Source: Pseudomonadota bacterium (GTDB lineage Bacteria; Pseudomonadota; Gammaproteobacteria; GCA-001735895). From it: 49,371 nucleotides of DNA. Numbering within the stretch: the stretch's first letter is position 1; the number at the start of each line of letters is the position of its first letter. The stretch spans positions 1-49,371 of the forward strand of contig JADFJT010000004.1 of assembly GCA_022566015.1 (NCBI GenBank), written 5' to 3'. The position numbers and the translations under genes were made by a program. Shown in pieces: positions 45,910 to 47,478 of the stretch. The notes beneath the pieces were generated by a model. That model ran no database searches and was not told where the DNA came from. It saw only the letters and a list, made by a program, of their open reading frames with translations.

Positions 45910-47130
45910 TTACTGGTTTTGTACCATTGCCCTGGTGGCCAGGGCATGTGATATTTCACTGTGTGACTTGCCCCAGTCGTCGCCAGGCGTATAGTAGATC
46001 AGTTCATCGCACATCGCTGCAAATCGCTTCTGACTTGAGCCTACAATTTCAAGATTCGAAGTAACGCCATAAATATACTTGCCCTTGGCTCGGGCGTAAC
46101 CACATTCGAATCCTGTCCATGCTGTATTCTCCACACCTTCCAGTATAACGATAACAATATCAGCTTTATCCAGTTCAGCCTGGTAACATTCCTGTAGTTC
46201 TCTCGGAGACAATGCGTCTTCATCAATATCCAGGTCTACCTGCGGGATGACGATTTCCATGTAAGGATTATCGCTCGTAATGGTATCACGTAAGGCTAGA
46301 TTCCAGACGCGCGACGCCTGTGCGCTGTTATAAGCAGCGAGGTAAGCCCTGATCCCACTGTGTATACCCATCTTGACGTTCGGTGTGATCGATTCTGGCT
46401 CCAGAGTGGTTTCCTTTTGTGCGGCGACCTCCAGAGCATCGGCTAGCGAAATATCATTTGAAATGAGTGCGTGGCTAATAATAGCGCCGTTAATATTCGG
46501 TAAATAGCGTAATCGGGCAATATCATCGAGGGTACGCACGGTACCACTGGAATATACCGGTATCGATACATCGTGGCTAAGCTGTTCGGTCAGTGCCAAC
46601 TCTTCTGTAAAATCACCGTCCATGCGATCAGTAGCCTTATGAATAACACCTGCTATTCCCGTCATCTGCAATTCACGAATCAGATCCTGCGGTCTAAAGG
46701 CTGTCTGAGTTTTCAAGCCATCAATGATAACAAAACCATCGCGAGTAGTCAGGTGTGCGATGATTCCACCAGGGTGACGACTTGCGGCTTCGATCACTAA
46801 AGGTGTATCGGTGATTGCGACAGTACCCAGGACGACGCGTGCGGCACCCGATTCAAACCAGTCATTAATCTGATTTAGTGTTCGAATGCCTCCCGACACC
46901 TGAACGGGAATTTCCGAATCACGAACCAATTGCTTGATTAATTTTTCATTATTAGTCGGCTTCGACCGGGCAGCATCTATATCGACTATCTGCAGCATTT
47001 CAGCCCCGCCATCGACAAATTTCTTCACAGCGTCCTGGGGTGAAATGTCGTGAATCGTTTTACTACCCTCTATGGTCGAAAGGGTAACAACTTGTCCGTC
47101 CTGAATTTGTATTTCCGGGATAATTAACAT
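45910..47130 (-). CDS. HisA-like barrel fused to a nucleoside 2-deoxyribosyltransferase-like domain
   Basis: 406 residues from the ATG at 47130, chosen because HisA proteins begin MLIIPAID and this reads MLIIPEIQ; an upstream GTG adds three residues. Residues 1-240 are a HisA/HisF-type (beta-alpha)8 barrel with LQIVDIDAA, the phosphate loops VQVSGGIRTL and VVLGTVAIT, and a weaker second half (SSGTVRTLDD). The two catalytic Asp of HisA appear replaced: position 8 is Gln and the later Asp aligns with Thr128 (HLTTRDG). Residues about 255-400 read as a deoxyribosyltransferase-like domain: IRAYLAAYNSAQASRV, DKADIVIVILEGVENTAW, and FECGYARAKGKYIYG with candidate nucleophile Glu342. Normal HisA isomerase activity is unlikely. 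Confidence 0.8.
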   Translation of the reverse strand: MLIIPEIQIQDGQVVTLSTIEGSKTIHDISPQDAVKKFVDGGAEMLQIVDIDAARSKPTNNEKLIKQLVRDSEIPVQVSGGIRTLNQINDWFESGAARVVLGTVAITDTPLVIEAASRHPGGIIAHLTTRDGFVIIDGLKTQTAFRPQDLIRELQMTGIAGVIHKATDRMDGDFTEELALTEQLSHDVSIPVYSSGTVRTLDDIARLRYLPNINGAIISHALISNDISLADALEVAAQKETTLEPESITPNVKMGIHSGIRAYLAAYNSAQASRVWNLALRDTITSDNPYMEIVIPQVDLDIDEDALSPRELQECYQAELDKADIVIVILEGVENTAWTGFECGYARAKGKYIYGVTSNLEIVGSSQKRFAAMCDELIYYTPGDDWGKSHSEISHALATRAMVQNQ

Positions 47131-47167
47131 GGCCTGCACGCAAATTTATTCGTGGAGTAGGGTAAAA

Positions 47168-47173
47168 ATTATA
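47168..47173 (-). promoter_or_regulatory. Extended -10 promoter of the HisA-like fusion gene
   Basis: On the minus strand TGG-TATAAT is a perfect extended -10 box about 38 bp upstream of the ATG at 47130. A TTGACT sits 23 bp further up, too far for a normal -35, so the extended -10 would carry recognition. A single-gene transcript is expected. Confidence 0.5.
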
Positions 47174-47478
47174 CCAGATTAGGCGATCTCATTTTTAGTC
47201 AAAGTGAATATGCCAACTGCAACTGAAAACTAACCCACTTAGTGCTGTTCGTGCAATCTTAATTTGATCCACCCGGTTAGTCATTATTTATTATTACCGG
47301 TTTGATCACACCGACTTTTATCATCGACTTTAATATCTGGTCATTTCCCCAGGTATCCCAGTTGAGAGCGATAGCATTTTTCGTTTCTATGGATACAATA
47401 ATGGGTACAAGATTGTATGATGTTACTATGAGCAGTACAAAACGAGTAAACCATAATAATCCATTAAATCAATAAGTT
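47174..47478. other. Intergenic region between the HisA-like fusion and the phosphatase gene
   Basis: About 305 bp without a supported gene. On the minus strand a stop-free stretch of about 57 codons (about 47280-47455) encodes a hydrophobic part and then NAIALNWDTWGNDQILKS, but no start codon, ribosome-binding site or known family is seen. It may be a gene remnant or chance. Repeated AT-rich stretches upstream of 47479 could contain the phosphatase promoter. Confidence 0.3.

Follow-up and report, generated by a model that had tools for sequence, protein, structure and literature searches.

The window analysed here, the whole 49,371-nt stretch of contig JADFJT010000004.1 (GCA_022566015.1) to which coordinates without a prefix refer, contains on its reverse strand a single open frame (45910..47139) that encodes 409 amino acids if begun at GTG; residue numbers are counted from this upstream GTG and not from Met4. 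Since Met4 (the ATG at 47130) is invariant among the 21 aligned sequences of the genus and the distant relative found in genome G253 begins at this residue, the likely start lies at 47130, where a preliminary description of this DNA had also placed it. The extended -10 promoter reported there as belonging to the gene was recovered as well, and more than half of the relatives inspected carry a like element (Table 1).

Table 1. Features of the fusion gene and its product in the window, and a second HisA-like fusion found in relatives. Conservation is given for the 21 aligned sequences of the genus and for the relative in G253.
Feature	Coordinates	Strand	Basis
HisA-like barrel / NDT-like fusion protein, 406 aa	45910..47130	-	Open frame; invariant Met4; relatives full length; likely start ATG at 47130
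Extended -10 element TGGTATAAT, perfect	47168..47176	-	Sequence; TGnTAnnnT ahead of the gene in 11/18 relatives
HisA-type (beta/alpha)8 barrel, PF00977	46450..47124	-	PF00977 E 1.1e-40; Z 31.8 to PriA 2y88
Gln11, replacing HisA catalytic Asp (D7 S. enterica / D8 T. maritima, end of strand 1)	47107..47109	-	Alignments; Q 20/21, H 1/21; Glu in G253
Second-phosphate gripper loop G83-G84-I85-R86, retained	46882..46893	-	G83, G84 21/21; R86 20/21; present in G253 too
Gripper G105-T106, retained	46822..46827	-	G 21/21, T 20/21
Thr131, replacing HisA strand-5 Asp127 (T. maritima) / Asp129 (S. enterica)	46747..46749	-	Genus T1/A17/V2/S1; Asp in G253
Lys168, replacing Thr of HisA YTDI motif	46636..46638	-	K 20/21, R 1/21; Thr in G253
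NDT/DNPH1-like domain, PF05014 (PF15891 matches too)	45913..46377	-	PF05014; 7o62 profile E 1.3e-6; domain model Z 15.8 to 7m5h, 7o62
Tyr266, counterpart of catalytic Tyr (Y24 DNPH1)	46342..46344	-	21/21 and G253; alignment to 7o62
Tyr319, where the family's catalytic Asp (D80 DNPH1) is expected	46183..46185	-	21/21 and G253; ungapped alignment to 7o62, 7m5h
Glu322, nearest alternative acid, one helical turn past Tyr319	46174..46176	-	20/21 and G253; gapped alignment to 7o62
Trp341, in place of Gly four residues before the nucleophile in 7o62	46117..46119	-	21/21 and G253; alignment
Glu345, predicted nucleophile (E104 DNPH1)	46105..46107	-	21/21 and G253; alignment to 7o62
HisA-like barrel / CmoM-like methyltransferase fusion	L106:1984-3495; also L107, L108, L109 (partial), L110	- (L106)	PF00977 search

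Sequence profiles and structural modelling both identified the N-terminal half as a HisA-derived barrel, in line with the HisA likeness noted in the preliminary description. PF00977 (His_biosynth) matched residues 6-230 with 139.9 bits (cut-off 23.6), the fusion protein scored 141.8 bits in a genome-wide search with the same profile, and the model of the fusion superimposed on M. tuberculosis PriA with an rmsd of 1.8 A over 231 residues, HisA and PriA structures matching it at Z about 31. The mean pLDDT of this model was 79.8 and its pTM 0.57, with low confidence in the linker, so that it does not give the relative placement of the two active sites. In a tree of 48 barrels the fused barrels formed one group (100/100), placed by a long branch on the side of HisA and apart from HisF, with no definite joining point within HisA; the HisA sequences used for this tree all have Asp at the first catalytic position, which is no independent count because they were picked by a pattern requiring it. 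The score for the HisA equivalog TIGR00007 was 147 bits, far under the cut-off of 228.95. A separate canonical hisA, which the preliminary description had proposed to look for, lies in the same genome (C182:1459-2187) side by side with hisF (C182:2266-2967), so that replacement of HisA by the fusion was rejected. Separate hisA and hisF genes were also present in the relatives checked; in the 62% complete genome G007 the fusion was found with no canonical hisA among its sequences, and the hisA of G017 is seemingly split across two frames (C223:4252-4900).

Both catalytic Asp residues of HisA are replaced in the window protein, as the preliminary description had claimed, and this holds throughout the genus alignment (Gln or His at position 11; Thr, Ala, Val or Ser at position 131) but not for the fusion family, in which the G253 protein keeps Asp131. 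The nearest candidate for a counterpart of the loop 6 Asp (D176 in S. enterica) is D174, offset by one residue and present in 17/21 sequences (Val in G253). The phosphate loops were found to be partly kept, again as described: the second-phosphate gripper is retained, and the first-phosphate region is altered in the genus (S-G-T, S-H-A-L) and reads SGT and GRAL in G253. In HisA, the equivalents of G83-G84-I85-R86, of G105-T106 and of a stacking Trp hold the non-reacting ribonucleotide half of ProFAR (PMC9088769, PMC7591586), the role of R83 in the gripper of SeHisA being given in PMC9088769. The stacking Trp (W145 in SeHisA) corresponds to W142, which is present in 19/21 sequences and is Leu in the window protein. 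Further pocket residues are conserved, namely E9, T132 and H167 (each 21/21), besides Q11 and K168 (each 20/21). The barrel thus shares with HisA and PriA the fold, the second-phosphate gripper and the side of the tree, and differs from them in the replaced Asp7, Asp129 and YTDI positions, the additional domain and the low isomerase score. Like PriA/HisA expansions such as AdeK (PMC13055916), it is a HisA-family copy with an altered active site recruited beside the normal gene; unlike AdeK, which is described as keeping HisA activity and is found in nucleoside antibiotic clusters (PMC13055916), it has lost the catalytic Asp residues, carries an NDT-like domain and sits in no cluster.

The C-terminal half matched PF05014 (Nuc_deoxyrib_tr) over residues 283-364 with 30.6 bits, narrowly passing the gathering cut-off of 28.8, and a profile search with this half matched NDT structures (7o62 among them, Table 1). 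A separate model of the half (pLDDT 83.3) gave, besides the similarity to 7m5h and 7o62, Z scores of 13.9 to DNPH1 and 12.4 to MilB. The likeness to PF05014 with a conserved Glu and a YLA motif, proposed earlier, was thereby corroborated, Tyr266 and Glu345 being invariant even in G253; these residues correspond to two members of the catalytic triad Y24-D80-E104 of DNPH1 (PMC10603095). With NDTs (7o62, 7m5h and L. leichmannii NDT) the half shares the fold, a YLA-type motif with its Tyr, an IPQxD-like segment and the putative nucleophile Glu within a GFECGYA motif, at a structural-alignment identity to solved NDTs of only 14-21%, and it departs from them by an invariant Tyr for the catalytic Asp and a Trp for the Gly before the Glu. 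With the nucleotide N-glycosidases DNPH1 and MilB it shares the fold and the active-site Tyr and Glu, but it has no Asp at the place of Asp80, and DNPH1 and MilB have no HisA barrel. In the ungapped alignment Tyr319 precedes the Ala-Asp motif by 8 residues and the Glu by 26, a spacing as in 7o62, whereas a single-sequence alignment drops three helix residues and pairs the family Asp with Glu322, which is lost in one relative (G015); the catalytic Asp is absent in either alignment, and the alignments alone leave both Tyr319 and Glu322 as candidates for its place. Because this Asp is missing and Trp341 replaces Gly, the C-terminal half is a divergent member of the family, and enzymatic activity should not be taken for granted. 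The likeness to N-glycosidases on which the preliminary description drew holds for the fold, Glu345 and Tyr266, while the half itself is non-canonical. A literature search found no described protein combining a HisA barrel with an NDT-like domain, in agreement with the earlier statement that no such enzyme was known. Another arrangement of an NDT-type domain was observed in genome G055, where it follows a part that is sugar-kinase-like by eye in a 402-aa protein (L105:664-1872 (+)) adjoining an open frame of QueC-like appearance.

The fusion was present in 24 of the 31 genomes of the genus (two with frame breaks, one cut at a contig end), which rules out a chance fusion or an assembly error, and was not found in the two sister genera (10 genomes). 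The breaks lie near residue 314 in L009:2642-3861 (G018) and near residue 332 in L032:1271-2502 (-) (G023), and may each be an assembly error or mark a pseudogene. A search of 369 genomes of the class and 398 of the phylum, two overlapping sets, with the C-terminal profile revealed one more fusion, the 41% identical protein of G253, which belongs to another family. Purifying selection acts strongly on both halves (dN/dS about 0.03-0.15 for most pairs; for nine pairs, where computable, 0.02-0.09 for the barrel and 0.03-0.14 for the NDT half), with a mean identity of 78% for the barrel versus 75% for the NDT half. In most genomes the gene stands alone, between an LMW-PTP gene that diverges from it and a lipoprotein or aldolase gene that converges on it, and in G011, G012 and G253 it is located away from the usual site; a function deduced from an operon was rejected, since the conserved neighbours have housekeeping roles and lie on other strands, and since the site differs in these three genomes. 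In G029 the downstream synteny is interrupted, the fusion and aldolase genes being separated by transposase-like frames and a masked run (L060:10712-14410). The absence of the fusion in G024 and G027 is real, as it is missing at the syntenic site by the aldolase and lipoprotein genes (L081:2422-3799 and L080:1282-2755). Given these empty sites and its presence in 24/31 genomes, the fusion counts as accessory, having been lost or gained, yet is strongly selected where present. No PADLOC match pointed to an anti-phage system, and no meaningful PHROG match to a phage origin.

The G253 barrel carries Glu at position 11 and retains Asp131 and Thr168. Because this relative keeps Asp131 and Thr168, the loss of the second Asp appears recent and limited to the genus; as judged from the alignments, the double loss is a trait of the genus and not of the fusion family, and we infer that the fusion came first and the remaining catalytic residues were lost later. 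When relatives were searched with PF00977, five genomes of the genus proved to encode another HisA-like fusion of about 504 aa, in which the barrel is joined to a CmoM-like SAM methyltransferase; this fusion was not found in the genome of the window. In its barrel the first catalytic Asp is replaced by His (5/5), and the second Asp and both phosphate loops are kept; the tree (73/36) neither supported nor rejected a common origin with the NDT-fused barrel.

Beyond the observed architecture, paralogy with HisA, residue losses, conservation and restricted range, we infer a function, to which we tentatively assign a probability of about one in three: the protein may couple a barrel that binds nucleotides but is dead as an isomerase to an N-glycosidase or transferase. 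As the general-base and second Asp positions are replaced, the barrel would no longer isomerise ProFAR, and G83-G84-I85-R86 and G105-T106 would still hold the aminoimidazole-ribonucleotide, the non-reacting half of a ProFAR-like ligand; the ligand would probably be a purine-like ribonucleoside 5'-phosphate. The C-terminal half would cut or transfer an N-glycosidic bond with Glu345 as the nucleophile, assisted by Tyr266, and with Tyr319 or Glu322 taking over from the usual Asp. In the weakest step of this scheme, ligand binding by the barrel might position the substrate for the second half, or gate it, and the protein might serve in nucleotide sanitation or salvage. The control of the second half by a ligand-sensing barrel, put forward in the preliminary description, draws no support from the gene neighbourhood, in which no operon partner was seen. 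The lack of a conserved NDT/DNPH1 Asp, with Glu322 itself lost in G015, speaks against this reading, as do the Leu at position 142 of the window protein and the altered phosphate-1 site. It is doubtful that the barrel is specifically an isomerase-dead nucleotide receptor gating the attached N-glycosidase, and that this lineage has a series of HisA-barrel fusions to which both the glycosidase and the CmoM-like methyltransferase proteins belong.

The replacements in the pocket are conserved and not random, and the invariant E9, T132 and H167 could indicate a new activity of the barrel rather than plain binding. E9, Q11, T132, H167 and K168 would then form a new active site, the two halves catalysing successive steps on one phosphoribosyl compound, and the G253 barrel, with Glu11, Asp131 and Thr168, may still be catalytic. 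We regard this as unlikely, since position 131, central to HisA catalysis, varies freely (A/T/V/S) within the genus, and the gene neighbours provide no pathway context. That both halves are non-catalytic binding modules of a nucleotide sensor or regulator is rather doubtful: the gene is a stand-alone unit, the catalytic residues of the barrel are gone, Tyr occupies the place of the NDT Asp and a Gly close to the nucleophile has become Trp, but the glycosidase-site residues Glu345 and Tyr266 are invariant down to the 41% identical relative. It is improbable that the barrel is an oligomerisation scaffold only, attached to a C-terminal half that works as an ordinary nucleoside/nucleotide deoxyribosyltransferase or hydrolase. 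NDT and DNPH1 do work as oligomers in which neighbouring subunits contribute to active sites (PMC10603095, PMC12645435), and the C-terminal fold is clear; the barrel, however, is conserved like the NDT half and keeps pocket and gripper residues, of which R86 and T106 would be needless in a mere scaffold. A second, working HisA, suggested by the fold and the PF00977 score, is hardly credible given the TIGR00007 score, the replaced catalytic Asp positions and the presence of canonical hisA.

HisA is a model for enzyme evolution, and most studies have asked how it acquires TrpF activity. In the fusion, this barrel has lost its catalytic residues but retains one phosphate site and is attached to a nucleotide-cutting fold. 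The pair of barrel and domain has been kept almost unchanged across the genus, which suggests that an enzyme of the histidine pathway became a module for handling nucleotides. An apparent intermediate (Glu11, Asp131, Thr168) is still alive in G253, so that the step from enzyme to binding module can be tested by ordinary biochemistry. If the proposed function is true, the fusion would connect histidine/purine intermediates with the cleavage of nucleotides.
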